Shown here: piece after piece, positions 20,717 to 36,003 of the stretch
Layout: every line of letters begins with the position of its first letter
How positions within the stretch are numbered: position 1 is the first letter of the stretch
Source: Bacteroidales bacterium
Lineage (GTDB): Bacteria; Bacteroidota; Bacteroidia; Bacteroidales; P3
NCBI GenBank assembly: GCA_017962545.1
Contig: JAGCVD010000025.1
Span: 1 to 51,090 of the forward strand
Direction: 5' to 3'
Length of the DNA: 51,090 nt
Notes under the pieces: generated by a model
Databases searched by the model: none
What the model was told of the DNA's origin: nothing
The model's input: only the letters and a program-made list of their open reading frames with translations
Made by a program: the position numbers and the translations under genes

Positions 20717-21112
20717 TCACCACTCGATGGCCGCGGAAATCTCGGAAGCCAGGGCCTTCAACTCCTCGGGAGTCATTGCGACATGGTGCCCGAAGTTGAG
20801 GTCGCCGGGCTTGTTCAGGGGCATGAGATGGATGTGGACGTGGGGCACGTCAATACCTACCACCGCTTCGCCAACCTTGATACAAGGGCATACCTTCTTC
20901 AAGCCCTTGGCTACTTTTTTTGCGAACAGATGAAGCTCACAAAAAAGTTCGTCATCGAGGTCGAAGATATAATCGACCTCCTGTTTGGGGATACACAAGA
21001 CATGACCCTTAACAACAGGATTAATGTCAAGGAATGCAAAGCAGTGCTCCGTCTCGGCCACTTTGTAGCACGGTATCTCACCGGCGACAATCTTACTAAA
21101 AATACTTGCCAT
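20717..21112 (-). CDS. HIT family nucleotide-binding protein
   Basis: This 131-residue cytoplasmic protein carries the histidine triad HVHIHLM (His91, His93, His95) and the family N-terminus SIFSKIVAGEIPCYKV. The layout is that of the HINT/HinT branch, whose members hydrolyse nucleoside phosphoramidates and adenylates. It follows greA by two bases and is surely cotranscribed with it. No terminator is obvious after it; rpsO starts from its own promoter downstream. Confidence 0.95.
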   Translation of the reverse strand: MASIFSKIVAGEIPCYKVAETEHCFAFLDINPVVKGHVLCIPKQEVDYIFDLDDELFCELHLFAKKVAKGLKKVCPCIKVGEAVVGIDVPHVHIHLMPLNKPGDLNFGHHVAMTPEELKALASEISAAIEW

Positions 21113-21114
21113 AA

Positions 21115-21588
21115 CTATCGCTCTATTTTGGTGAGTTCAAATGTCATCTTGCCTGCGGGAACGTTAACCTCGACAAGGTCGCCGACCTTGTGCCCTAGGA
21201 ATGCCGAGGCGAAAGGCGAGGTAACGCTTATCTTGCCCTGCTTGAGGTTAGCCTCACTCTCAGGCACAATGGTGTATTTCTGAACCATCTTGTTCTTGGT
21301 GTTTCGGATGGTGATGATGGACAGCAACAGCACCTTCGAGGTGTCGATTTTGCTCTCGTCAAGCAGACGAGCGTTAGCCACAAGGTCCTGCAGTTTGCTG
21401 ATACGCGCTTCGAGATGGCCTTGTGCCTCCTTGGCGGCGTCGTACTCGGCATTCTCCGAAAGGTCACCCTTATCGCGCGCCTCAGCGATGGCCGCAGAAG
21501 CTGCAGGGCGCTCGACGACGATAAGGTGGTGAAGTTCATCCTTCAGTTTCTGAAGACCTTCTTCGCTGTAATACTTTATTTCTGCCAT
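21115..21588 (-). CDS. greA: Transcription elongation factor GreA
   Basis: The 157-residue protein has the family length. The N-terminal coiled coil runs through LQKLKDELHHLIVVERP, AEARDKGDLSENAEYDAAKEAQ and LEARISKLQ, including the acidic tip residues that work at the RNA polymerase active site. The C-terminal FKBP-like domain contains SPFASAFLGHKVGD. GreA rescues backtracked polymerase by stimulating transcript cleavage. The PorV-like gene upstream ends in a terminator only 33 bases before this start, so greA depends on a promoter I cannot identify or on readthrough. Confidence 0.97.
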   Translation of the reverse strand: MAEIKYYSEEGLQKLKDELHHLIVVERPAASAAIAEARDKGDLSENAEYDAAKEAQGHLEARISKLQDLVANARLLDESKIDTSKVLLLSIITIRNTKNKMVQKYTIVPESEANLKQGKISVTSPFASAFLGHKVGDLVEVNVPAGKMTFELTKIER

Positions 21589-21613
21589 GATATGTCTATT
21601 TATTCAAGCGTTT

Positions 21614-21649
21614 AAAAAGTGGGAAAGGCTTGTTGGAAAAGCCTTTCCC
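21614..21649 (-). terminator. Intrinsic terminator of the PorV-like gene / secDF locus
   Basis: An 11-bp perfect stem (gggaaaggctt / aagcctttccc, 21621-21649) with a 7-base loop is followed on the minus strand by ACTTTTT. It lies 26 bases past the stop of the PorV-like gene. Confidence 0.9.
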
Positions 21650-21674
21650 ATATTAGGATTATGTGCGATTGCTC

Positions 21675-22742
21675 TTAGAAACGCAGGCTGGCTCCGATGG
21701 AGTGGGTGCCACGCATAGGCGATGCCGACTGGAAAGAGTAGTCAATGGTGATACCCGTTTTACCGTCATCCTTGGCGAGAGGCACGTCGACCGACGCACC
21801 GGCGCAGATACCATTGTTAGCCGTGGCGGCATCTCCGCTCAAGAGACCGGGCTGCATAATATATCCACAACGCAGCTGGAACATCTTAAGCAGACTGTAC
21901 TCGACGCCAACGATATAGTTATCGCGCAAGAATGCATTGGAGGTGAAGGCTGCTGCCAGGGTTAGGCGCTGATCCCAGTTCTCAAAAAGGAAGTCGTAAG
22001 AGATACCAATGTTGAGGCAGGTGGGAAGCTCCATCTCGGCGGCACGCGTCTCAACGGTGAAATTGTTGCCAGCAGTGTTGACCATCTGCAGTGATAGGCC
22101 AGTACCGCCGAACTTCATCGAAGGACCCCAGTTCTTCAGAGAGATACCAAACTTGAGTTCATCATCCTCACCAGTGACATACTGGATACCAGCGTCGATA
22201 CCTAAGCCCGAGCCACTGACATTGTCGGTGCTCTCGGTGACAACCTTGAAGAGAATGGAACCATGAATGGTGTTGGTGAAACTATGGGCGTAAGCCACAT
22301 TAATGTTCATGTAGCTGGGCGAGAAGGTACCATTACCACCCTCAGGGCTGAGGTAGGTAGTGACATCGATATCACCAAAGCCCATGGACATAATGTAGAC
22401 ACCAGCTACACCGCGCTCGAAGATACGCACGGCAAGACCGAAGGTATTGATGGTGGCGCCGCTGGATAGTCCGCTCTTACCACCATACAGCATAGTGTTG
22501 GTATAGCCCACCTCGATACTCTCGACGAAAGCAAGACCGGCCACATTGGAGAACATGGAACTGAGGCCTCGCACATTGGCCACGTTAACGCCACCCCAAC
22601 CAGTGTTGCGTGCCCAGGGGTTGATGAGCAACTCAGAAGCACCGGCTGTGCCACGACGTTCGTCATTGCCGGCGTAAGCCGACTGTGACGTGAGGGCCGC
22701 GAGGACCACAACTACAGCAAATATTCTAAATATATTTTTCAT
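21675..22742 (-). CDS. PorV/PorQ family outer-membrane beta-barrel
   Basis: This 355-residue exported protein has a signal peptide ending near AYAG. The mature start resembles PorV/PorQ proteins: TAGASELLINPWARNTGWGGVNVANVRG, then SMFSNVAGLAF. Repeated amphipathic strands and a terminal Phe (GASLRF) indicate an outer-membrane barrel. In T9SS, PorV receives cargo from the SprA channel and carries it to the attachment complex, while PorQ partners PorZ. Its place directly after a large protein with a T9SS-like C-terminus suggests it is a cargo-specific partner, not necessarily the main PorV. Confidence 0.85.
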   Translation of the reverse strand: MKNIFRIFAVVVVLAALTSQSAYAGNDERRGTAGASELLINPWARNTGWGGVNVANVRGLSSMFSNVAGLAFVESIEVGYTNTMLYGGKSGLSSGATINTFGLAVRIFERGVAGVYIMSMGFGDIDVTTYLSPEGGNGTFSPSYMNINVAYAHSFTNTIHGSILFKVVTESTDNVSGSGLGIDAGIQYVTGEDDELKFGISLKNWGPSMKFGGTGLSLQMVNTAGNNFTVETRAAEMELPTCLNIGISYDFLFENWDQRLTLAAAFTSNAFLRDNYIVGVEYSLLKMFQLRCGYIMQPGLLSGDAATANNGICAGASVDVPLAKDDGKTGITIDYSFQSASPMRGTHSIGASLRF

Positions 22743-22778
22743 TTTCTGTAATGTTTTTGTCGTTAGGTGTTACATGTG

Positions 22779-25700
22779 TTAGAAACCGAAAGAGTTGAGG
22801 TCGACAGGACGCATCGTGCCGAACCATTTGACGACACGCTCGCCGATGCCAGGCACCGTGATATGGATAAGATACATACCGCCGGCAATGGGAATACCCG
22901 TCTGGTTGTGGAGATCCCAGTCGTAGGTAGTGCTGTTGACCGGCGTGGGACCGAGGGAACGAACCAGCGTACCATCAGAAGTGTAGATACGTATGTAGCA
23001 ACCTTCCTTCTTGCCATCCTTATTGACACCGGTGGGCAGGTTAATGAAGCGTACCTTGGTCTCCAGTTGGCTGGCTGTTTCATAGTTGGAGTAACTATAG
23101 TAGGGGTTGGGAACTACATTTATCAAACTCAGGATGGAATCGACATAACTCTGTCGAGCACCATTGGCGGTGGCCAGGTTCTCAAGAACGGCATCGGAGG
23201 GGTTGATGACGAACTGGTAAACCGGCATATTCTTGTTGATGGCGGTATTACCTGTACGCATGGCGTCGGTGCCATTGAAGCTCATATACTTGCTGTAAGG
23301 AGTACGGATGTCGATGTCAACAGTCACATCACAGGGGATATCCTTCGGATTGTCGAAAGCATAGCGCGGGTTGACCAAAGGTATGTTGACCCAAGCCGTG
23401 GAAGCATAGAGCATGGCGATAGAGTCGCGGACGGGCACATAGTTGTCGGCTCGGCTGACAAGACCCTTGTAGAGCAACTTGGTACCTGTGGTGGGATAGA
23501 GCTCCGAATTGAGCATGCGCTCAGCAGATTGCAGCATATTCATTGCCCAACGGCCGGCATCATAACTCGGAGTGACATAGGTAGTATATGCGCTTCTATT
23601 AATGCCATTATCGCGATCAAGCAAGTCATAGAATGTCTGACGCGTAGCGTTCATCACATAGATGTAGTGACGTCCACCGAGGACGTAGTTCTGCGTACCT
23701 TCCATTGTCGAGTTATCGGGGTTCCACATCATGTCACGGCCATTGTGCTGCACGTAACGCGAGTCTTCACCAAACATGATGTTCAAACGCTCACCGCTGA
23801 CAGTGTTGATGGCGTAACCTGGGAACCAACCCATACCGTTGGCCGAGATGTACTCGGGATCGTCAGTGCTACCGGCAGCATAGGTAATACCCTGTGCAGC
23901 GCATTCGGCAGCCGTCAGACCGTCTTTATTGACGGAAGCGTGGCGACGCACGGCGAAACGACGGGCATTGCCTTCGGAAAGAGTATAGTCATCGCACATC
24001 TCGACAACCGGGCAACGTGTCCACTTGCTTTGGTCAGCAGTGAGAACGATACGCACACTGGGCAACTTAGCAAGTTCATTGTAGTTGAGAGCCTTGTTGA
24101 AGATATTCGTCAACAACATGCGCTCAAGACGATAACGGCTGACACCAAGGCTGTCAAGCATATGGTCATCGTCGGTGATGAAAGAGGCGAAACTGAAGCC
24201 CGGATGGAACGGCATCGTAGAGACGACACCATAGGGAGCCCAAGTACCACCCACAACACTCTCATAGACCTGTGTCTTGTCAATACCCTCACTGGAGTCA
24301 ATGGATGAAGAGACCGTGGCGGAATAGACTTTCCATGCCTTGAAATAGTCTTCATCAAGGTAGGCCTCGTTGACACTGTACGGCGAAGACGAAGAGATAA
24401 AGTTCTCATAAGCATTGGCAGAGAACTGGCTACCAGAACGAATCCAGTTATAAATCAAGTAGGAATCGTTATCGGGCAAGCCATACAACCACTGCTTGTT
24501 CTCGTCAGCAAACTTCATGGACGAGCCCAACAGGGCACCCTCTTTGACAAATCCTTGATAGAATTTACCAGGATAATAGTTAGTCTTGTATGTACCATCT
24601 GTGTTTTTATAGCCAGAGACATCAATACTGGAAGCTGCCGCCTTGGGGTTAAGCAGAGAGACAGCAATACCGAGTTCAGGGAATATCTGCTCATTATAAC
24701 GCGAGATGGAGAAGTGTGACCACACGCGAGTGAATGTGTCATAAACAGGACCACCGTCAGCATTAACGATGCACCAGCGGGTGTTCTTGTTGACACCACC
24801 GCCTACCGTATCATTGTTGACATTGGTGATATTACCATCGGCGTCATAGATAGCGTTCCAGAAGAGGATGTTGAAGCGGCCTTCTTTCAACTTGAGCGGG
24901 TCGATGACGCGCACGTTGATAGGACCGTAGTTCTCTTCATACTGAGGATGAGCGATGATACAGGGGCTGGTCATATAGGAGCGGTCACCCTGACCACCGA
25001 TGCCTGTAGTAAAGTTGTTCACATAGGTGCCGGGGCCCTTGCCTTCAACACCAGGGGCACCCATCAACTCGGTGATGGACTGCTCGGTGAGACGCAGACC
25101 TGAAGTGGTACCATTACCAAATCCCTCGATACGAATAATGTTGGGGCTCATACCGAATTCAGCCTGGGCAACCTTACCACCGTCTTCAACGGCAGGATTG
25201 TGAGGAATGACCGTGATGGGGGTAATACTTCCACCACGCTCGTTCTTACGACCAGCAAGGTAAGGCTCTTTCTGACCATCGAGGAAAGCTGCCTCTGTCT
25301 GAGAATACTCTTTGAAGCGGTTTTGTGCATATGCGATGGCGATAAAGTAGTATTCCCTATTATTCACCAAACCGGTATTCTGACCAGTGGCAAAAGCATC
25401 GTTGGTAATGCGGAAGACATGCTGGATACCTTTGTTGGCACCCTCGACCATCACAGTACCTGTAAGCAGACCGGTCTGCGTGTTGGTGGTGAAATTAGTA
25501 AGTGTACCGATAGGCAGACTGGGGTTGGGGTTCCAGGTGGTGTCAATGTGATGAACCACAGTGTCACCAGCGCTGGTGATAGTCCAGACCGTATCTATCG
25601 ACAGGATGGTATCGTAGTAGTTCTCAATATCGCACTGGGCAACCAAACGAGCCTTCGAGGCATCGTTGATGTCGGCGATAGAAGTGTTGCCATCTTTCAA

Positions 25701-27851
25701 CTGATAAATCTGATAGCCTTCAAAGATGAAGCTACGGGCCACCGAGTCATAGAGATGAGTGTTACCACTGGCATCAGTGTAACTACGGACGATGGCGGGA
25801 TCAACTTCACGATACTTCTCATTATAGTTGTTGGATGTTCTGTCCTCATAGTTGAGATACAGAATAATCTCATTGCTCAACTCCTGGGCAGTCATGGTGG
25901 GAGCGTCGGGACCGTCAAGAACCTTGAAGCAGTTCTCAAAGAGAGCCTGGCACACGTCATCAATCTCACGCAGCAAGGATACCGAAGCCCACTGGCCGTC
26001 ACCACTGGAAGCCTGAGCGAAAGGAATACCCACGGTAATGTAATTCAAAGCACCAGGTTTCAAGGTGAAAGGACCTGCCGACTGCATGAAACGACGGTCA
26101 CCAGGACTGTTGCCGGCGGTAATCTCACGCCAATCATCAGGATTGACGGAAGGCATCTCACCATCGGTACCCCAATGCCACGGGTCGCTGTTATCCGGGA
26201 ACATGAAGTCGCAATCGAGATTGGCGGGGTCAATGCCCGTGGAGACAGCGTTTCCACCATACTTCATGCGCTGACCGTTCTTCCAGTAGCCACGGAGGTA
26301 GTTGTAATAGTCGTTAGCCTTTACGGGCTCACCGTAGATTGCATTGAGAGAGTTGTCGTAATACACGAAACGGCGCATACCGAAACGTTCGTCGTCGACA
26401 ATATTGTTACCAAAGTTCACACCATTGATGGCACAGTTGCCCACTGCATCGCCGGGGTGGAAATACCAACTGTCATAACCAGTTTCACTTGTAGCGAAGA
26501 AGAGGTCGGCATCGTCGGTGATGGAGATGGTGTCATACACCTGTCTTCCATAGGCATCAATAGAGTCGATAGAGGTGCCTTTCTTCTTCATCTTGTAGTT
26601 ACTCAGAAGGTTCTTCACCTGCAAGTTGGTATAACTGTCACTGAGAATCTTGGGAATATCAATCTTGGGATTATCCAAACCATCGGGGTCCATATACGGG
26701 CCTTGGAAGAAGTCGATACCGACTGCAGGAGGCATACCGGAATAACTACCCGAACCAGGAGTATCCTGAGACTTACCATTGTAGCAATAACCGAGACCAC
26801 GACGTACATCGCAACCCACAAAGTCGTCCCAAGCATAACCCAAATCCGGATCAACCCACTGGCTGAAGTAGGTCTCACGTAACTCATAGGTGGAACGGTT
26901 GATAATCTCGTAGGAGTAGAATGTCATGTTATTAATCTCGTCATTCGTGGAGAATGCGAAAGCCTGGGCACGAATCTCGAGACCGATGGACTCACCTTTC
27001 GACTCGGTATGTGTATTACCCTTGTCGTTGAAAACCCACCAGATAGTCTGGTCGCCTTTCAGAACTTGGTCCGAGAGAAGGCCGCCAGTGACGATACCGG
27101 CAACGTCTTCCTGCGTGGGAAGCACATGCTGGGTGTATTTGTCACCCCACTCTGCCTTCAATGTACGAGGGCAAAGTTCGTTATCAAAGTCATAGTAGGG
27201 ATAATCACCCTGTTCAGGCTCATAGACACCATTCTTGTTGGCATCATAGAAAGGTGCCAGGAAACTTGTCAGGTCATCGCCATCACCATGGGCGGGCCAA
27301 TCTCTGATGATGTCGGGAATATCACCAGCGCTATAACCATCAATGATTGTGGCGCCATTACTGTCATACTCAAAATGAGCCTTGTGAGCCAAAACCTCAG
27401 CCTTGGTGATAATCCAATGCTTGTCATACTGGTTACAAACAGGCAGGTCAACAGAAGCCGTGCCATTGATTTTCAGAGGACCAGTCCAATAATCGTCACC
27501 GTCGCTACCAAACTTAAGAGCGGCAAGACGGAGCTGATCATTGACGTCGGTACCGCCAATCCACAAGGCAGCACAGAACAGCGGGCAAGTGTTACTGTTC
27601 TTGGGCAGATGGTATTTAGCGACACTGCCGTCGTACCACATGTTACCATAGCCATTAATCAGAGCACGCACATTGTTAATGTTAAGCTCCGCAGTACTCT
27701 GCGCCCTCTTACAGACAGCAGCCTTAGACTGTATAGTAACCTTTTTCGCGTTGGTTTTCTTACACTCAATGCACTCACGTGCCGATACGGTAGTCGACAC
27801 TGTGGCTAGCAGCAAGGAAATCAATACCAATTTACTATATATACTTTTCAT
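22779..27851 (-). CDS. Giant surface protein with T9SS-like C-terminal domain
   Basis: This 1690-residue exported protein has a signal peptide ending near VSARE. An early cysteine-bearing segment (RECIECKKTNAKK) is followed by long beta-rich regions without a catalytic family I can name; ALWIGG, WADF-like aromatic clusters and many GxW turns occur. The last 110 residues begin INVVPNPYY and contain CYIRIYTSDGTLVRSL, YDWDLHNQTGIPIAGGMYLI and GERVVKWFG. This is the fold and order of a T9SS sorting domain, though it ends with MRPVDLNSFGF in place of a plain final strand. It should cross the outer membrane by T9SS. Lying between a TonB receptor and a PorV-like barrel, it is probably the surface-exposed partner of both. 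Confidence 0.8.
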   Translation of the reverse strand: MKSIYSKLVLISLLLATVSTTVSARECIECKKTNAKKVTIQSKAAVCKRAQSTAELNINNVRALINGYGNMWYDGSVAKYHLPKNSNTCPLFCAALWIGGTDVNDQLRLAALKFGSDGDDYWTGPLKINGTASVDLPVCNQYDKHWIITKAEVLAHKAHFEYDSNGATIIDGYSAGDIPDIIRDWPAHGDGDDLTSFLAPFYDANKNGVYEPEQGDYPYYDFDNELCPRTLKAEWGDKYTQHVLPTQEDVAGIVTGGLLSDQVLKGDQTIWWVFNDKGNTHTESKGESIGLEIRAQAFAFSTNDEINNMTFYSYEIINRSTYELRETYFSQWVDPDLGYAWDDFVGCDVRRGLGYCYNGKSQDTPGSGSYSGMPPAVGIDFFQGPYMDPDGLDNPKIDIPKILSDSYTNLQVKNLLSNYKMKKKGTSIDSIDAYGRQVYDTISITDDADLFFATSETGYDSWYFHPGDAVGNCAINGVNFGNNIVDDERFGMRRFVYYDNSLNAIYGEPVKANDYYNYLRGYWKNGQRMKYGGNAVSTGIDPANLDCDFMFPDNSDPWHWGTDGEMPSVNPDDWREITAGNSPGDRRFMQSAGPFTLKPGALNYITVGIPFAQASSGDGQWASVSLLREIDDVCQALFENCFKVLDGPDAPTMTAQELSNEIILYLNYEDRTSNNYNEKYREVDPAIVRSYTDASGNTHLYDSVARSFIFEGYQIYQLKDGNTSIADINDASKARLVAQCDIENYYDTILSIDTVWTITSAGDTVVHHIDTTWNPNPSLPIGTLTNFTTNTQTGLLTGTVMVEGANKGIQHVFRITNDAFATGQNTGLVNNREYYFIAIAYAQNRFKEYSQTEAAFLDGQKEPYLAGRKNERGGSITPITVIPHNPAVEDGGKVAQAEFGMSPNIIRIEGFGNGTTSGLRLTEQSITELMGAPGVEGKGPGTYVNNFTTGIGGQGDRSYMTSPCIIAHPQYEENYGPINVRVIDPLKLKEGRFNILFWNAIYDADGNITNVNNDTVGGGVNKNTRWCIVNADGGPVYDTFTRVWSHFSISRYNEQIFPELGIAVSLLNPKAAASSIDVSGYKNTDGTYKTNYYPGKFYQGFVKEGALLGSSMKFADENKQWLYGLPDNDSYLIYNWIRSGSQFSANAYENFISSSSPYSVNEAYLDEDYFKAWKVYSATVSSSIDSSEGIDKTQVYESVVGGTWAPYGVVSTMPFHPGFSFASFITDDDHMLDSLGVSRYRLERMLLTNIFNKALNYNELAKLPSVRIVLTADQSKWTRCPVVEMCDDYTLSEGNARRFAVRRHASVNKDGLTAAECAAQGITYAAGSTDDPEYISANGMGWFPGYAINTVSGERLNIMFGEDSRYVQHNGRDMMWNPDNSTMEGTQNYVLGGRHYIYVMNATRQTFYDLLDRDNGINRSAYTTYVTPSYDAGRWAMNMLQSAERMLNSELYPTTGTKLLYKGLVSRADNYVPVRDSIAMLYASTAWVNIPLVNPRYAFDNPKDIPCDVTVDIDIRTPYSKYMSFNGTDAMRTGNTAINKNMPVYQFVINPSDAVLENLATANGARQSYVDSILSLINVVPNPYYSYSNYETASQLETKVRFINLPTGVNKDGKKEGCYIRIYTSDGTLVRSLGPTPVNSTTYDWDLHNQTGIPIAGGMYLIHITVPGIGERVVKWFGTMRPVDLNSFGF

Positions 27852-27877
27852 CTTGATTAATTTTTTCGCTGTTAGAT

Positions 27878-30800
27878 TTAGAACATATAGGTTAAGCCCA
27901 CTTTGATGGTACGGGGGCTACAGTAGTGCCATGTACCGTTACGGAGAATGATAGTGTAGATATCACGGAAAGCCTGCGGGTCGAGGTAGGCATTGATAAC
28001 CTGCTGCGACTCGGGATCGGTGAGGTAGCCGTTATCCTCGGGGTTACCCGTCACAGGGAAGACGCCAACGATGTTGCGGATATCAAAGAGGTTGTTCACC
28101 GTCACAGCAGCACGCAACTGCGTCGGACGTTTGCCAACATTGAAGCTCCACACCTTATCAGCAATAATATTAAAGTAGAAGCCCCAAGGCATACGAGCGC
28201 CACGATATCCACCAACGATAGTGGCCTGCGAGTTCGAGAACTGCTTGGTGTAGGGACGACCAGACTGGGCAACAGCGAGGAAGTTGATACCGAAGTTCTC
28301 GAGGAGCTTCACTTCTTTCTTACGCTTCTCTCCAGTCTCTTTGTCCGTGACAACACGAGTAATGACAGGACCGTTGTACTTGCTGCCGCTGCTGTAACGG
28401 AAGTCGACATTGGCCTTGAACTCGTGACGACGGTCATCGCTAATCGGGTTGAGCATCTTCAGGGTGGTGTAACCTTCCTTGATGAGCTCGGTCATCGTAG
28501 TCGACGACAGACCTGTACCCTCAGCATACTGCAACGTATAGTTGGCGTTGACGCGGATGTTCTTGGTCTGACGGAGGTCGTAAGCCAACGTGACACCCTT
28601 GATGGTACGGAAGTCCTTGTTGTCATAGCTGTAGTAATTGGGGTTAGGGTCAGCACCGGCGTACTGGACCAACTGGATAAGGTCGCGAGTCTCTTTGTAG
28701 TAAGCCGAGGCACTGATGGCGGACGACTGATTAAGAGCCTGCTGGAAACCAAGTTCGTAGTTGGTGATACGCTCAGGTTTCAAATTGGGGTTGGTAATGG
28801 AGGAAATCTGAGTCATATAGAGGTAGCTCAGATAACTGGCCTCCCAGCCCGACGAGGGACGACGGGCGATAATGTCATAACTGGCCTTGAACTGCGACTT
28901 CTCACCAATGGGGAAGGAGAAGGCGATACGAGGCATGGCAACAATCTGAGGAGTGTAACGTTCAAAGGCTGAAGAATACACCGTGTTGTTCTTCATAGCA
29001 GCTTGACCGCCACCGTCTCCACCAGTGCGATAAGGAGTCGGCTTACCCGTAGTACCGCTGACCTCATTGGGCGAAGAAACCTCCGCACCCATGGCATTAT
29101 ACCACTTGCCTTCGGGGTCACGATAACCAACAATGATAGGCATTGTCGTGTTGCTCTCATCGGGAACGTAGTTGACATAAGGCACCCAATCGTCTCCAGC
29201 GTTGTCAAGATAGGAATCACCACCGCTGATGAGGCTACGGTTGGCACGAATGTCGGCCACAGTGTAGGACTGATACAGCAGATAGGGATCCGAGAGGACG
29301 TACTGGTTACCGTCGAAATAGTCGACACGAACACCCACATTGAATATTAAGTCTTGGAAATAGAACTTATCCTGAATATAACCAGCCACATAAATGGGCG
29401 AGAAAGCAGGCAGCAAGCGATCCTCGGAATTGAAGAAACGGTCGAGGGTCCAGTTTGCTCCGTTGTATTTCTTACCAGTGTGGTCATAGCCGATATAACC
29501 GACCTTCGAGTTACCACTGTTGAAGAGCTCGTCAGCGGAGAACATGTTGATACCACCGGCATTCACATAGTCCTCAGGGGAATAGCGGTCAATATCAATC
29601 CACGTATAGTCATCAATCGGGCTACCGTCAGTGTTGGTGTAACCATTGCTAATCAGATACTGACGGAAAGCAGCATCGAAAGGCGACTGCTGATCTTGGT
29701 CAAGCAGACGAGGATAGTTCACATAGAGCTGCGAACCACGCTGCTCATAAATAGGATTGTCTAAGTCCATCTGCGAGATATGACGGTTGGCATTCTGACG
29801 CATAATTGTCCACAATTCGTAGGCATTCAAAGAATAGGACGACTGCCACATCTGGTCATACTGCACACCGACCTCAATTTCATGACCTTTCACATCAGCC
29901 GATGCCTTGGCCTGCAAATAGAGGTAGTCGTTCTGACTCTTCGAATAACTGGCACTCTGCACACCGACATTCGAGATAAGACTATAAATGCTTGAGGGGG
30001 AATCACCATTGTAAAGACCCTTGTAGGCCAAAATATAGTCACGAGTGGTCAAGTACGGTTGAATATCACGGAACTCCTCGCTGCCGAACAACTGCTCATT
30101 GTAGTTGGCAAGCAGCGGATTGTAAGTAGTATAGCCGTTCTCCGGGTCATAGGGCGACACATAAGTCACTTGGTCTCTCCAGTTGTTCTGTACATAAGCC
30201 CATTGATTAATACCATTATAATCTATCTGACGCAATTCATACGTGGGGACCTTTTCGGTGACAAACTTACCAATATAACCGTATTTGAAAATATCATCAA
30301 TGCTACTGCCAAAGTTCTCATTATACGATCTCGATGTATAACGGTTGACCATACCAGTAATATTGTACATCACATTTTTGATGGGGGAAGAAGCCTTGGC
30401 CTCATCCTCATTGGATACTTCGGCATCAGGGAAACGCTGGGTGAAGTCCACGGTAAGAACCATGTTCATGCCCTCGCCCACCATCGAGCCGGAGAGAGAC
30501 ATCGCCAAAGGCGACACCGAAGCCGACGGAGAATGGCTGGCACTAAACTCACCCGTCAGAGTCAAGGTAGCATAGTCCGAGAAACGGAAGTCGAGAGCAC
30601 CCTCCATACCAATGCTATAATACTGCAGGTTGGGTACACGCGAAGCATCGCCGCCGAAGTTCTTCTTTCCAAGACGCGTGAACTCATAGAAACTCTCCTT
30701 GCGAAGCAGTGTTTCTCCAGAATAGTTTACACCTCCCGTGAGAGGATCATATGTCAATGGGTTCTGCTCAATTTGTCTCACGAGGTCGTCATCGACAATC

Positions 30801-31690
30801 TGATAGCGATAGCCCTTCACACGATAGAACGGAGAATTCTCATACGACCCCTGTCCGTTGAAACGGAAACCTATCAGCGTACGCTCGACAGTAGAGCCAT
30901 CGGCCTGCTTAAAGTTTTTCTTATAGACAGGACCCGTCAGGTACACCATCAGCGTGTGAATGTAGCGATAGTCAAGATAGGTCTCCCAGCGTGCCACACC
31001 TTGGAACTGGCTCGTTGGCGGTTTCAGCGTGATAATCTGCGAACCACCGATAGCCTCACCGATGCTGGCCGGAGTACCACCCAAGATAACCTGAATCTCA
31101 GCGATAGCCTCCTTAGGAGCGGAAATACCCGTACGCTTACGGACATTACCCTGCATGGTAACCATGCCGCTCTCACCACGAGCCGTACCGGTACCACCAT
31201 CACTATAACCGACACCGCCGACCGATGCCACAATACTCTCTACTGAAGTACCAGGCATGCGCGCAATATCGTCGCTCGACAGTCGAGCACCTTGCTCGGC
31301 AGAGCCGATTTCAATGACAGGCACCTTGTCGGCCACAATGTCAACCACCTCAAGAGTGGTGGCAGTGGGATTAAGTGCGACATCAACCACCGTGAAACCC
31401 GAAGCCTTCACGTTGATACCCGTCTGCACATAGCGGTTGTAACCCACTGAGGAGACCTCAATGTCGTACTTACCAACAGCGAGGGGCTTGATGGTGAAGA
31501 TACCGTCAAAGTCCGTCTGACCGCCGTGTACCTGTTTACCGTCTTGCTTGACGACAATGTTGACAAAAGGCATAGGTTCCTTCGTCTTGGCATCGGTAAT
31601 GGTGCCCTTCAGCGTGCCTTGCGCCAATGCTGCCATTTCCGCCATCAGCAAGAGTCCGAATGTCAATAGTACTTTTCTAAACATTCTCAT
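27878..31690 (-). CDS. TonB-dependent receptor with N-terminal CarboxypepD-like domain
   Basis: This 1270-residue outer-membrane protein has a signal peptide (ending AALAQG). A carboxypeptidase-regulatory beta-sandwich follows (about 24-110: GTLKGTITDAKTKEPMPFVN, TDFDGIFTIKPLAVGKYDIEVSSVGY), then a plug domain to about 230 and a large barrel ending in Phe (VGLTYMF). Family members use TonB energy to import ligands; in this subgroup the substrate is unknown. The gene lies 26 bases before the giant CTD protein and 43 bases after secDF. Unlike SusC it has no SusD neighbour; the giant protein takes that position. Confidence 0.9.
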   Translation of the reverse strand: MRMFRKVLLTFGLLLMAEMAALAQGTLKGTITDAKTKEPMPFVNIVVKQDGKQVHGGQTDFDGIFTIKPLAVGKYDIEVSSVGYNRYVQTGINVKASGFTVVDVALNPTATTLEVVDIVADKVPVIEIGSAEQGARLSSDDIARMPGTSVESIVASVGGVGYSDGGTGTARGESGMVTMQGNVRKRTGISAPKEAIAEIQVILGGTPASIGEAIGGSQIITLKPPTSQFQGVARWETYLDYRYIHTLMVYLTGPVYKKNFKQADGSTVERTLIGFRFNGQGSYENSPFYRVKGYRYQIVDDDLVRQIEQNPLTYDPLTGGVNYSGETLLRKESFYEFTRLGKKNFGGDASRVPNLQYYSIGMEGALDFRFSDYATLTLTGEFSASHSPSASVSPLAMSLSGSMVGEGMNMVLTVDFTQRFPDAEVSNEDEAKASSPIKNVMYNITGMVNRYTSRSYNENFGSSIDDIFKYGYIGKFVTEKVPTYELRQIDYNGINQWAYVQNNWRDQVTYVSPYDPENGYTTYNPLLANYNEQLFGSEEFRDIQPYLTTRDYILAYKGLYNGDSPSSIYSLISNVGVQSASYSKSQNDYLYLQAKASADVKGHEIEVGVQYDQMWQSSYSLNAYELWTIMRQNANRHISQMDLDNPIYEQRGSQLYVNYPRLLDQDQQSPFDAAFRQYLISNGYTNTDGSPIDDYTWIDIDRYSPEDYVNAGGINMFSADELFNSGNSKVGYIGYDHTGKKYNGANWTLDRFFNSEDRLLPAFSPIYVAGYIQDKFYFQDLIFNVGVRVDYFDGNQYVLSDPYLLYQSYTVADIRANRSLISGGDSYLDNAGDDWVPYVNYVPDESNTTMPIIVGYRDPEGKWYNAMGAEVSSPNEVSGTTGKPTPYRTGGDGGGQAAMKNNTVYSSAFERYTPQIVAMPRIAFSFPIGEKSQFKASYDIIARRPSSGWEASYLSYLYMTQISSITNPNLKPERITNYELGFQQALNQSSAISASAYYKETRDLIQLVQYAGADPNPNYYSYDNKDFRTIKGVTLAYDLRQTKNIRVNANYTLQYAEGTGLSSTTMTELIKEGYTTLKMLNPISDDRRHEFKANVDFRYSSGSKYNGPVITRVVTDKETGEKRKKEVKLLENFGINFLAVAQSGRPYTKQFSNSQATIVGGYRGARMPWGFYFNIIADKVWSFNVGKRPTQLRAAVTVNNLFDIRNIVGVFPVTGNPEDNGYLTDPESQQVINAYLDPQAFRDIYTIILRNGTWHYCSPRTIKVGLTYMF

Positions 31691-31733
31691 TGCGTTTACA
31701 TGTATAGTTATTATTTATTTTATTTGTCACCAA

Positions 31734-34700
31734 TTATTGGGCCAATGCCTTGGCCTTCTTCTGCTTGCCGGAAATTTCGTACACCACCGAGCAGGCTATG
31801 CACAGCGACGAGAACACACCGACCAGAACACCAACCAATAAGGCAAAGATGAAGCCGCGAATCACCTCGCCACCAAAGATAAACATCATCAGCAAGGTGA
31901 CAAAAGTGGTACCCGATGTATTAACAGTACGTGCCAACGTGGAGTTGATGGCATCGTTCATATGCGTAACGAGGTCACGTTTGGGATAAAGTTTGCGGTA
32001 TTCACGCACACGGTCGAAGATAACCACCGTAGCATTAATGGAATAACCTATCACCGTCAACACGGCCGAAATGAAATACTGGTCAACCTCAAGGTTGAAG
32101 GGCAACAAACCATAGAGGAGAGAGAATATACCGATAACCAACAGGGTATCATGCGTCAAAGCAGCCACACTACCTATACCGAAGCGCCAGCTACGGAAAC
32201 GCAAACCAATGTAAACAAACATCACGAGCAGGCCACCGATAACCGCCCAGATGGAATGCACCAAGTTGTCATGGGCAATAGTACCGCCTACCTGATCAGC
32301 CTGGATGATACCCACAGGATTGGTCTCGGTCGACTTGAACTCTTCCACAGTCACAGGATTGGCAAAGTACTTGCTCGTTCCTGCATAAAGTTTCTCCACA
32401 ATTTCATTCTTCACAGCATCACCGTCTTCCGCAATCTTATACTTGGTCGTAACCTTCAACTGGTTGCTCGGGCCGTAAGTCTTCACCTCAGGAGCCTCTT
32501 CAAACTGCTTGGCCAAGTCGGCACGCACGTCAACGGCATTGACGGGCTGATCGAAACGCACCACATAAGTACGGCCACCCGTGAAGTCAATACCGAAACT
32601 CAAACCACGGAAACTGAAACTGGCGATGCATATCACAATAGCGACACCTGCAATGATATAGAACAGGCGACGTTTACCTATGAAGTCAACATGAGCATTG
32701 CGAAGGAAGTTCTCCGAGAAAGGGAAGGAGAAGTTAATCTTGCGCTTATGCTGCAGGTTGCTGTCGATAATCAGACGGGTGATAAAGATGGACGTGAACA
32801 AGGATGTGACAATACCGATGCAGAGTGTGACTGCAAAACCCTGGACGGCACCCGAGCCGAACATGATAAGCACCAGACCCAGCAGGAACGTCGTCACCTG
32901 TCCGTCAATAATAGCTGAATAAGCGTTCTTGAAGCCGTTCTCAACTGCGTTGGCCATACTGGCACCCGAACGAAGTTCCTCTTTGATACGCTCATATATA
33001 ATCACATTGCCATCCACTGCCATTGCCATGGTTAAGACGATACCAGCCATACCAGGCAACGTCAGCACTGCTCCGATGGAGGCCAATATTCCAATTAAAA
33101 GGAATACATTAGTAATAAGGGCCGCCACCGACACCCAGCCGGCACGGTTATAGAAGAGGACCATGTAGATGAGCACCACGATGAATGCCAGCACCATGGA
33201 AAGCAGACCATTGCGGATAGACTCCTGACCAAGTGAGGGGCCAACGACCGCTTCCTGCACAATCACAGCAGGGGCAGGCAGTTTACCACTCTTGAGGATG
33301 TTGGCCAAGTCCTTAGCCTCTTCAAGGGTAAAGTCACCAGTGATAGAAGAACGGCCTCCAGCAATCTCTCCATTGACACGAGGTGCAGAATACACCTGGT
33401 CATCGAGGACAATGGCGATACAATTGCCCACATTCTCTCCCGTTATGCGCTTCCACTCACGGGCGCCCTCGCTATTCATGGTCATCGAAATCTCGTTGCC
33501 GCCAACGGTCGAGAAATCCTGTCGGGCATCACTGATGCAACCACCGTCAAGCAGTGCCGAACCGTCACGAGTGGTAATCTTGATGGCATAAAGCACATAC
33601 ACGTCGGCACCGAAGTGCTCATCGGCCTTGGCCGACCACAAGAACTTCACCGTACGGGGATCATAGACTTTCTTCTCGGCAGCCTTGTCAAGCATCGCGC
33701 TGATATCTGCACGGTCTTTGCTGGCGGCAAGACCCACGATAGGACCTTGCAACGGCTGCATATTCTGATCAACATAGAGTTGCAATTTCGCCATCAACGG
33801 ATTGCTCTTGGCAAAAGCCTCGCGATCAGCGGCCTGAGAAGCTGTGGAAGCATTGTCGGCAGCAAGCTGCTCGAGCATGGCTTCTGCACTATCTTTTACG
33901 ACCTCCTCTTCTTCGGCAACAGCGGTGGTATCGGCTTCACCATTGACATTGATGGAAGCGAGGTAAGTATTAGCAGCATCCAGGAAACGGATAGCCTCGG
34001 TATTGTCATACGTCTGCCAAAACTCCAACTGAGCAGTACCTTGCAGAAGTTTGCGCACACGCTCGGGTTCCTTCACTCCAGGAAGCTCAACCAAAATGCG
34101 CTCCGAAGCAGAGAGCTTCTGAATGGTGGGCTGAGCTACACCGAACTTGTCGATACGCTGACTCAGAATTTGGTAAGTACGGTCATAGGCACCGGCGGCT
34201 TCTTCCTTAACGACCTTGATAACATCGTCATTCTTGTCACCCAACTTAATCTTGTCGCGGAGCTGCCCACTGAAATAGGATGCCAACGACACGTTGGGGT
34301 CTAGTTTCGTAATCTCATCGTAGAAAAGGGAAACAAAGTCACGGTTGGTGCTCTTCTTCTGAGATGCCAATGCATTATCAATAGCTTGGTTGAAAAGAGG
34401 GTCCTCGGTATGGTCGGCGAGAGCACGAACCACATCAACAGTCGAAACCTCAAGCATCACATTCATACCACCCTTAAGGTCGAGGCCGAGGTTAATCTCA
34501 CGGCTCTGGCACTGGCGATAGGTGTAACCCAAATAGACCTTCTCTGAGGCCATGGAGTCTAAATAGCGAGCTTCACGGGCATTGCGGAGGGAGTCCACAA
34601 GAATTTGCGCATCCACATCGTTATCGGTTCTTTCAGCCACAAAACGCTGCGTTTGCTCGTTCTTGATGTAGTTTTCAGCGGTTTTTTTAGCCTTGCTTTC

Positions 34701-34793
34701 AATGCTGCTGGTCACAAAAGTAAACGACAATTGAAACAAACAAACCAATGCGAAAGCCCATGCCAAAAATCTGATAAGTCCTTTATTCTGCAT
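31734..34793 (-). CDS. secDF: Fused protein translocase subunit SecDF
   Basis: This 1019-residue inner-membrane protein fuses SecD and SecF, which use the proton gradient to pull preproteins out of SecYEG. The SecD part shows GLDLKGGMNVMLEV (about residue 100), a large periplasmic P1 region and the helix pair with GMAGIVLTMAMAVDGNVIIYERI. The SecF part shows GIDFTGGRTYVVRF (about residue 740) and SINATVVIFDRVRE. One fused chain of this length is normal for Bacteroidota. It starts at its own promoter (34841-34871), and with no terminator after it the receptor gene 43 bases on is probably cotranscribed. Confidence 0.97.
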   Translation of the reverse strand: MQNKGLIRFLAWAFALVCLFQLSFTFVTSSIESKAKKTAENYIKNEQTQRFVAERTDNDVDAQILVDSLRNAREARYLDSMASEKVYLGYTYRQCQSREINLGLDLKGGMNVMLEVSTVDVVRALADHTEDPLFNQAIDNALASQKKSTNRDFVSLFYDEITKLDPNVSLASYFSGQLRDKIKLGDKNDDVIKVVKEEAAGAYDRTYQILSQRIDKFGVAQPTIQKLSASERILVELPGVKEPERVRKLLQGTAQLEFWQTYDNTEAIRFLDAANTYLASINVNGEADTTAVAEEEEVVKDSAEAMLEQLAADNASTASQAADREAFAKSNPLMAKLQLYVDQNMQPLQGPIVGLAASKDRADISAMLDKAAEKKVYDPRTVKFLWSAKADEHFGADVYVLYAIKITTRDGSALLDGGCISDARQDFSTVGGNEISMTMNSEGAREWKRITGENVGNCIAIVLDDQVYSAPRVNGEIAGGRSSITGDFTLEEAKDLANILKSGKLPAPAVIVQEAVVGPSLGQESIRNGLLSMVLAFIVVLIYMVLFYNRAGWVSVAALITNVFLLIGILASIGAVLTLPGMAGIVLTMAMAVDGNVIIYERIKEELRSGASMANAVENGFKNAYSAIIDGQVTTFLLGLVLIMFGSGAVQGFAVTLCIGIVTSLFTSIFITRLIIDSNLQHKRKINFSFPFSENFLRNAHVDFIGKRRLFYIIAGVAIVICIASFSFRGLSFGIDFTGGRTYVVRFDQPVNAVDVRADLAKQFEEAPEVKTYGPSNQLKVTTKYKIAEDGDAVKNEIVEKLYAGTSKYFANPVTVEEFKSTETNPVGIIQADQVGGTIAHDNLVHSIWAVIGGLLVMFVYIGLRFRSWRFGIGSVAALTHDTLLVIGIFSLLYGLLPFNLEVDQYFISAVLTVIGYSINATVVIFDRVREYRKLYPKRDLVTHMNDAINSTLARTVNTSGTTFVTLLMMFIFGGEVIRGFIFALLVGVLVGVFSSLCIACSVVYEISGKQKKAKALAQ

Positions 34794-34840
34794 AGTTTAG
34801 ATATAAATTTATTATTTTTATTTAATTCTCTTTGAATGTG

Positions 34841-34871
34841 CAAAAGTAACAAAAAATATTGACATAGCAAA
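34841..34871 (-). promoter_or_regulatory. secDF: Promoter of secDF
   Basis: A -33 TTTG (34868-34871) lies 19 bases from -7 TACTTTTG (34841-34848) on the minus strand, an exact match. The start is expected near 34834, divergent from the radC promoter. Confidence 0.75.
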
Positions 34872-34891
34872 TAAAATTAAAAAAAAAGATG

Positions 34892-34899
34892 TACCTTTG
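34892..34899 (+). promoter_or_regulatory. radC: -7 promoter element of radC
   Basis: TACCTTTG matches TAnnTTTG. The start would fall near 34906, which rules out translation from the upstream ATG at 34889 and supports ATG 34928. The -33 position is A-rich without TTTG. Confidence 0.55.
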
Positions 34900-34927
34900 C
34901 AGCAAAATTCAAGATATACAGAAAGAT

Positions 34928-35641
34928 ATGGAAAACAAAAAATGCCTCACGGTAAAAGAGTGGGCCAACGACGACAAACCCCGTGAAAAAATGCTGCTTT
35001 ACGGGAAAAAAGGACTTTCCAACACAGAACTCATAGCCATCCTTCTACGTAGTGGCCTCCCCGGCAAAACAGCCGTCGATGTGGCCAAAGAAATACTTAG
35101 TACCGCCGACAACAAACTAACGACACTCTCTCAATTGGACTACAGCCACTTGGCACACATCAAAGGTCTTGGCACCGCCAAAGTCACAACACTCATGGCG
35201 GCACTGGAACTCGGCTGGCGGATGCAGGGCGAAATCAGCGACTCTAACGAACTGATTCTAAACGACAGTACATCGATTTTCAACTATATGGCTCCCTTGA
35301 TGGTCGACCTTGACCACGAGGAGTTTTGGGTCGTATATATGTCCATTCGCAACAAAGTAATTACACGCCAGCGTATTGCCGTAGGTGGACAGACAGAAAC
35401 ACCTGTAGACATACGCATTATTTTCCGCAAAGCACTAGAAAACAAAGCCGTGCACATTGCCCTTCTACACAACCATCCCTCTGGAGGCCTGCACCCAAGC
35501 AGCATCGACTGCAAATTGACAAAGCAATTGGTAGAAGCAGGCAATCTACTTCAAATAAAAGTTACAGAGCACATTATCATTGCCCTCGGCGCCACTGGCA
35601 AAGCCGATTATTATAGTTTTCACGACAATGGACTGCTTTAA
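34928..35641 (+). CDS. radC: RadC family JAB/MPN-domain protein
   Basis: The 237-residue protein has an N-terminal helix-hairpin-helix region (LSNTELIAILLRSG, IKGLGTAKVTTLMAALELG) and a C-terminal JAB domain. The metal motif is HNHPSG (residues 181-186) with Asp194 in SSID, so the zinc-ligand set looks complete. RadC was named for DNA repair, but its biochemical role is unsettled. ATG at 34928 gives the usual family start; an earlier ATG at 34889 lies upstream of the expected RNA start. Its TAA overlaps the TAA of the convergent folB gene by three bases. Confidence 0.93.
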   Translation: MENKKCLTVKEWANDDKPREKMLLYGKKGLSNTELIAILLRSGLPGKTAVDVAKEILSTADNKLTTLSQLDYSHLAHIKGLGTAKVTTLMAALELGWRMQGEISDSNELILNDSTSIFNYMAPLMVDLDHEEFWVVYMSIRNKVITRQRIAVGGQTETPVDIRIIFRKALENKAVHIALLHNHPSGGLHPSSIDCKLTKQLVEAGNLLQIKVTEHIIIALGATGKADYYSFHDNGLL

Positions 35642-35991
35642 AGCACGGTTACCTCGACACTCACCGAGTCCATATGACCTCCTAGTGGAGGATTGAGCTT
35701 ACTAACCCGAACCACAACATTCTTGGTATCAGGAAACTGAGTCCTAACCACCTCCCCCACCCTGCGGGCCACATGCTCTAACAAGTGAGAGGGACTATCC
35801 ATCTCCCGTTTCACCACCTGATACACCTCAAGATAATCGACAGTATCTTCTATATTGTCAGATATTTCCGCTCTACTCGTATCAACTTCCATGCGAAGGT
35901 CGACCTGAAAGTGAGTACCGATGACCCGCTCCTGTTCAAAACAGCCATGATGGGCATAAAACCGCATGCCATTAATAGAAATAACTGACAT
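35638..35991 (-). CDS. folB: Dihydroneopterin aldolase
   Basis: This 117-residue cytoplasmic enzyme of folate synthesis cleaves dihydroneopterin to hydroxymethyl-dihydropterin and glycolaldehyde. Family signs are the start ISINGMRFYAHHGCFEQERVIG, NIEDTVDYLEVY in the middle, HLLEHVARRVGE, and the conserved lysine strand VRVSKLNPPLGG. The length is typical. It follows pheS by 12 bases and likely shares its transcript. Confidence 0.95.
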   Translation of the reverse strand: MSVISINGMRFYAHHGCFEQERVIGTHFQVDLRMEVDTSRAEISDNIEDTVDYLEVYQVVKREMDSPSHLLEHVARRVGEVVRTQFPDTKNVVVRVSKLNPPLGGHMDSVSVEVTVL

Positions 35992-36003
35992 GTTACAAGG
36001 TTG

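Follow-up and report, generated by a model that had tools for sequence, protein, structure and literature searches.

A conserved gene trio of a TonB-dependent receptor-like protein, a giant T9SS-type protein and a PorV/PorQ-family barrel in Bacteroidota

Pairs of a cargo protein and its outer-membrane barrel are already known in the type IX secretion system (T9SS), for cargo with type B C-terminal domains (CTDs); the word TonB is absent from the main texts of both papers (PMC12618676; PMC9143113). FadL-type barrels that hold surface proteins are already known as well, from the relevant parts of two papers on the Bacteroidota BAM (PMC12578637; PMC12611786). In this work we analyzed a stretch of 51,090 nt from a Bacteroidales bacterium (contig JAGCVD010000025.1 of assembly GCA_017962545.1), referred to below as the window, in which genes for a TonB-dependent receptor-like protein, a giant T9SS-type protein and a PorV/PorQ-family barrel stand side by side. 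In the open-licence PMC literature we found no description of a recurrent unit, within or across genomes, that joins a receptor to a PorZ-type giant with a PorV/PorQ barrel of its own, a weak absence because most subscription papers fall outside that scope. We propose, at about even confidence, that the three genes form an outer-membrane module in which the giant, exported by the T9SS, stays uncleaved on its own barrel beside the receptor, all three making up one TonB-driven uptake complex.

The gene trio and its conservation

The conserved unit is the trio of receptor, giant and barrel, which together with the two coding parts of the giant discussed below has the following positions in the window:
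27878..31690, minus strand: TonB-dependent receptor-like protein, 1270 aa, with a signal peptide (by eye), a CarboxypepD_reg extension, a plug-like region and a TonB-dependent receptor (TBDR) barrel, from profile matches
22779..27851, minus strand: giant T9SS-type surface protein, 1690 aa, with a signal peptide (by eye), an N-terminal beta-supersandwich, a beta-rich part and a PorZ/PorU-like CTD
25920..27716, minus strand: part coding for the N-terminal beta-supersandwich, about residues 46-644
22782..23129, minus strand: part coding for the CTD, about residues 1575-1690, with the W-13-GxY insertion and the conserved extension MRPVDLNSFGF
21675..22742, minus strand: PorV/PorQ-family outer-membrane barrel, 355 aa (NF033709), which we propose as the giant's own dedicated shuttle and anchor

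The three genes were adjacent and on one strand in each of 19 loci mapped in relatives, of which 13 belong to the same genus and six to other families; in one locus a contig end truncates the receptor. Among the named loci, which are the best 80 of 566 and come for the most part from uncultured Bacteroidales (the titles often name a rumen or gut sample), the barrel was present in 80 and the receptor in 78; the other two begin at a contig edge. We then searched 296 genomes of the phylum with a model of the giant (E 1e-10, at most two candidates scored per genome) and obtained matches in 142 of them. From the strongest giant matches, 40 loci of other families and classes were chosen. The trio was complete in 34, three more (L169, L178, L180) are cut by contig ends, and the remaining three (L177, L191, L203) depart from the arrangement.

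In addition, 12 genomes of other classes were picked as carriers assembled in one or two contigs. The tally drew, among the matches listed, on 82 CTD matches of at least 50 bits, nearly all barrel matches, and the receptor matches starting at the N-terminus. A PorV-family barrel followed within 500 nt in 46 of the 48 CTD matches of at least 85 bits, and 45 also had a receptor within 8.5 kb upstream. Of the three misses, two come from L203, whose tandem giants have receptor and barrel beside them on the opposite strand; in the third the receptor is 10.8 kb off, behind a tandem set. Genome G219 carries 11 sets, counting CTD matches from 50 bits. Thus, adjacency of the trio recurred in every set of loci examined and the genes were not scattered in relatives, which bears out the suggestion of the first-pass annotation that the arrangement might be conserved. 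This adjacency contrasts with paralogues that share the N-domain of the giant but lack its special CTD.

It should be added that a second arrangement recurs, consisting of T9SS-type proteins, an unknown protein of about 510 aa, a TonB-dependent receptor and then a PorV-family barrel. Its receptor has a Plug match over the cut-off and a partial SusC/RagA match. The arrangement is annotated in L208 (1918-11553) and partly in L211, and match spacing indicates it in eight more of the 12 genomes. PorZ was considered for the CTD protein ahead of the receptor-barrel pair (9 of the 12 genomes), and was rejected after two L208 proteins of this kind gave no match to the PorZ model at E 0.001.

Features of the giant, the barrel and the receptor

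The giant had no match in Pfam, and a search of NCBIfam at E ≤ 1 returned only two sub-threshold FlgD matches, over the C-terminus. Its end was not recognised by TIGR04183 or PF18962 (E ≤ 1), and TIGR04183 scored 17.1-19.7 bits on the giants of three relatives against a cut-off of 23. Although these models are silent on the window protein, the predicted fold of the C-terminus is that of a T9SS CTD, in agreement with the T9SS-type end reported in the first-pass annotation. The predicted structure matches the CTDs of PorZ, PorU, RemA, NucA and RgpB. As modelled, the domain is an Ig-like T9SS signal nearest to those of PorZ and PorU, whose CTDs stay uncut, and this kinship with uncleaved CTDs is well supported. 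A W-13-GxY spacing, which corresponds to an extra hairpin after the fifth strand and a longer CTD, was present in 118 of 119 giants (the remaining one is a pattern artefact), the hairpin being judged by sequence spacing and not by strands in a solved structure. The PorU of the same genome shows the same spacing by eye. Moreover, our CTD model A1C matched this PorU but none of the ordinary type A CTDs of the paralogues (E 0.01).

After the last CTD strand, an MRPVDLNSF-like extension (window 22782-22814) was seen in all giant tails compared except those of L205 and L206.

For the N-domain, structure prediction gives a beta-supersandwich fold like that of carbohydrate-active enzymes. A SusD-like fold was considered for the giant and set aside, as the N-domain matched supersandwich enzymes instead. 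No SusD entry stood among the 50 structural matches listed for it, which excludes nothing, and a profile search of the giant gave no SusD-family match at E ≤ 1. Residues 25-900 compared by sequence with the PDB yielded nothing under E 0.7; in a library of viral structures the N-domain had one match below E 0.001, an Fn3-named phage protein with a low TM-score, the others being weak. Mean column identity is 54% in the N-terminal part and 40% in the remainder. This part is therefore the more conserved half, which speaks against a variable adhesin.

Paralogues with the N-domain of the giant, an ordinary type A CTD and no adjoining barrel or receptor were found in L053-L058, L177 (1070-7152) and L191 (5946-16558); in L177 and L191 they stand in tandem. 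Comparison of these paralogues with the trio loci revealed that the presence of a partner barrel tracks the type of CTD.

The barrel scored 125.4 bits with NF033709, the model of the PorV/PorQ family, and so lies above the cut-off of 90. It remained below the equivalog models for PorV and PorQ, NF033710 and NF033711 (46.4 of 250 and 49.2 of 220 bits), and had no match to PorP/SprF (TIGR03519) at E ≤ 1. Since a canonical PorU-PorV pair is located elsewhere in the same genome (L052), the trio barrel is an additional member of the family. The first-pass annotation had taken it for a PorV/PorQ-like shuttle. The family assignment holds, and the role can be refined: the closest analogue is the PorZ-PorQ pair, with a retained CTD, and not the recycling carrier PorV.

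The receptor matched PF14905 (OMP_b-brl_3) with 49.2 bits (cut-off 27) and PF13620 (CarboxypepD_reg) with 59.1 bits (cut-off 32.3). As judged from these profiles, it combines a TBDR barrel with an N-terminal extension of the CarboxypepD type. No SusC/RagA match (TIGR04056) was obtained for the window receptor at E ≤ 1. In the same genome 12 places match the receptor profile, and among the eight listed only the trio receptor is matched over its full length, the others covering the N-terminal extension and the plug region. For an open frame of about 1900 aa in this genome (G000:C33:6671-6838), the match is confined to the first 200 profile positions or fewer, and the same applies to frames of about 2000 aa in several relatives.

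Neighbouring genes, promoter and terminator

Apart from the trio, we located the following features:
31734..34793, minus strand: secDF, 1019 aa (NF009585), a lineage-specific neighbour outside the conserved trio
34841..34870, minus strand: promoter of Bacteroidota type, TTG-N19-TACTTTTG, 47 nt 5' of the secDF start codon, from a motif scan with a shuffle control
21650-21620, minus strand: intrinsic terminator-like hairpin with a 12-pair stem and a T-run that closes the unit, from a terminator scan
20717..21588, minus strand: greA (157 aa) and a HIT-family gene (131 aa), annotated downstream neighbours outside the system

The open reading frames (ORFs) of secDF, receptor, giant and barrel all run in one direction on the minus strand, and the gaps between them are 43, 26 and 36 nt by ORF call. 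The short gaps claimed earlier are thus borne out, the last one having been given as 35 nt. From this spacing, the four window genes look like a single operon. As had also been noted, no SusD-like gene lies inside this four-gene unit. The genome itself is an 81% complete draft of 1.95 Mb in 42 contigs.

A promoter-like motif was found ahead of secDF as well, in line with the one clear promoter of the first-pass annotation. This motif, TTG-N19-TANNTTTG, which we take to be of the Bacteroidota -33/-7 type, occurs 5' of secDF in 57 of 67 loci compared with 1.5 expected from shuffles; these 67 secDF loci, also used in the gap scans below, include contigs fetched twice. A sigma-70 scan gave 31 promoter-like sites (17.2 expected), but it models a promoter type other than that of Bacteroidota. 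The motif was further tried as the trio's own promoter and was present inside the secDF-receptor gap in 10 of 67 long-gap loci (0.9 expected); among 53 loci without secDF it lay at most 200 nt upstream of the receptor in three (0.7 expected). As to the "strong" terminator of the first-pass annotation, the hairpin is the longest of 13 terminator-like sites within 21000-36000, while the number of such sites is at chance (12.1 expected). Terminator-like hairpins were also seen within the first 200 nt of the secDF-receptor gap in four of the 67 loci (0.4 expected).

The identity of SecDF is certain (NF009585, 1275 bits against a cut-off of 1037). The gene precedes the trio in 13 of 13 loci of the genus and in none of six loci of other families, just three of which had at least 3.8 kb upstream. 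It is present at 59 of the 80 named loci, and of the 21 without it 16 had at least 6 kb upstream of the giant. No secDF stood next to the trio in the flanks fetched from other families and classes. Gaps below 60 nt between secDF and receptor occur only in the window and in 4 of the 59 named secDF loci, plus one duplicate fetch among those; in the other 55 the gap is about 380-630 nt, often with a small ORF inside. SecDF is therefore a neighbour and not a component of the system, and the earlier view that it belongs to the complex as a support for heavy export was not borne out.

The small ORF in the gap is unannotated, about 121 aa long, with an apparent single membrane span and a C-terminal FDLRQAVIY-like motif. 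A simple motif search found it in 51 of 67 long-gap loci, duplicates included (e.g., L034:4803-5244). The window gap (31691-31733) and those of the nearest relatives have no room for it.

On the other side of the trio, greA follows the barrel in the window, and a GreA motif is present somewhere in all 80 named loci. As greA is kept nearby, the trio occupies an old, vertically kept place in the window's order. In two loci of other classes a GWxTD-domain protein stands directly 3' of the barrel (L174:12717-14252; L192:13399-14829).

A proposed uptake complex, its rivals and known systems

The proposed TonB-driven module would work as follows. The giant would be exported by Sec and then through the SprA channel of the T9SS, with its Ig-like PorZ/PorU-type CTD as the signal. 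At the channel it would be collected by the co-encoded PorV/PorQ-family barrel. By analogy with PorZ, which is anchored by PorQ, the CTD may not be cut off and may stay bound to this barrel. The anchored giant would then lie over or beside the receptor, its supersandwich and beta-rich parts forming a ligand-binding cover, and the receptor, which has a SusC-like N-terminal extension, would import the ligand bound by the giant. We consider that the trio probably serves uptake.

Export by the T9SS is well supported, and T9SS-dependent secretion of the giant is predicted. The sprA gene (PF14349) was revealed in 228 of the 296 genomes, including the window's own. All 142 carriers of the giant have sprA, and there is no carrier among the 68 sprA-negative genomes, although these counts ignore kinship and 16 of the 20 sprA-negative genomes listed of the 68 belong to one family. 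The presence of sprA is not sufficient: the giant was found in 8 of 69 sprA-positive genomes of the window's class versus 134 of 159 in other classes.

Besides this family make-up of the sprA-negative genomes, several observations weigh against the uptake complex. The window receptor has no Plug match (PF07715) at E ≤ 1. The trio arrangement is broken in L177, L191 and L203. Both partners accompany only 18 of the 34 CTD matches that score 50-85 bits, and matches below this range merge gradually with many other proteins of the T9SS. Most giants outside the window's order are only 1000-1400 aa long. The PorZ equivalog model NF052228 matched two of four giants tested, both from relatives and over the CTD only (35 and 36.9 bits, cut-off 260), with no match for L046 or the window giant. 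A PorZ-like hairpin inserted in RgpB did not stop cleavage (PMC11285876); the hairpin thus marks uncleaved CTDs and is not the cause of non-cleavage. The predicted supersandwich fold shows no function, and some genomes carry both the trio and SusD. Finally, riboswitches and other RNA families that might hint at the substrate were sought ahead of the trio, and 20 sources gave only three tRNAs at the gathering threshold.

Because the window receptor lacks a Plug match, a structural or envelope-assembly role stays a serious rival, even if on balance we find it improbable. The giant would in that case be a surface scaffold that the barrel anchors through the retained CTD. The TBDR-like barrel would not be an importer but a second anchor or a plugged barrel, for example in a complex that attaches surface glycans, comparable to the role of PorZ in the attachment complex. 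The CTD is indeed kin to those of PorZ and PorU, which are themselves T9SS attachment machinery; the full-length giant was found once in each genome of the genus and is well conserved and close to greA, which gives it a housekeeping look; and the few annotated neighbours include no substrate-specific genes. However, other classes have many copies per genome, nearly each with its own receptor, which suits substrate-specific units better, and the receptors of two relatives come near the Plug threshold (18.5 and 22.1 bits against 23.9).

It is less probable that giant and barrel are a co-transcribed cargo-shuttle pair, the barrel serving secretion and anchoring, beside a receptor that acts independently and outside any three-part complex. 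Joint encoding is known for type B cargo and its PorP/SprF partner (PMC12618676; PMC9143113), and the linkage of barrel and giant (46 of 48) is as tight as that including the receptor (45 of 48). Nevertheless, a receptor that stood there by chance is unlikely to have been retained in 45 of 48 copies and in different classes of the phylum. Very improbable, in our opinion, is a secreted enzyme or adhesin, that is, an ordinary type A cargo that is cleaved and released or anchored to lipopolysaccharide, with a superficial CTD resemblance to PorZ and PorU: both the selectivity of model A1C and the coupling of barrel presence to CTD type speak against it.

If the TonB-driven uptake complex exists, the T9SS would not only export enzymes and adhesins but also build receptor complexes that are permanent. 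Such a complex would help to explain the abundance of PorV-family barrels and provide a candidate nutrient gate for lineages without SusD, and the question of which CTDs escape cleavage would become testable on many natural giant-barrel pairs. We put forward only tentatively, as a possible but doubtful generalization, that the trio represents a third uptake architecture in Bacteroidota. Each receptor would be paired with a T9SS-delivered carbohydrate-binding protein seated via an uncleaved PorZ-type CTD on its own barrel; the architecture would be common and multi-copy outside Bacteroidia, perhaps ancestral there, and retained in single copy, close to greA, in Bacteroidales poor in SusD such as the present lineage.

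Among known systems, the PorZ-PorQ pair resembles the trio as proposed here: PorZ reaches the surface by the T9SS, its Ig-like CTD stays uncleaved, and a PorV/PorQ-family barrel serves as its holder. PorZ also provides the nearest solved CTD structure. The differences are that PorZ has propellers, whereas the trio giant, of 1000-1700 aa, has a supersandwich N-domain in their place; that the window barrel fails the PorQ model; and that the trio is nearly always near a receptor and is multi-copy in other classes. Type B cargo with PorP/SprF is similar in that cargo and its own FadL-type barrel are co-encoded and the barrel is needed for export and anchoring, but the window barrel does not match TIGR03519 and the trio CTD is different. 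In the Bacteroidota BAM a FadL-type barrel likewise holds a large surface protein beside another outer-membrane barrel (BamG/BamH; relevant parts of PMC12578637 and PMC12611786); however, BAM is built on BamA, and its surface parts are lipoproteins and not T9SS cargo.

With regard to SusD, PF07980, the one SusD model searched across genomes, had no match in the window's genome and matched 3 of 59 genomes of the genus. This SusD-poor genus resembles a member of the rumen family 'Ca. MH11' which, in the part of PMC5831590 concerned, is described without SusCD loci and as exporting cellulases by the T9SS, a likeness that does not imply membership of that family. The trio shares with SusCD a large TBDR with a CarboxypepD-like N-terminal extension and a co-encoded surface partner. 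It differs in that the window receptor does not match SusC/RagA and the partner, neither SusD-like nor a lipoprotein, is of T9SS type and has its own barrel. The whole would thus be an equivalent of SusCD in its job, with a surface partner delivered by the T9SS instead of as a lipoprotein.

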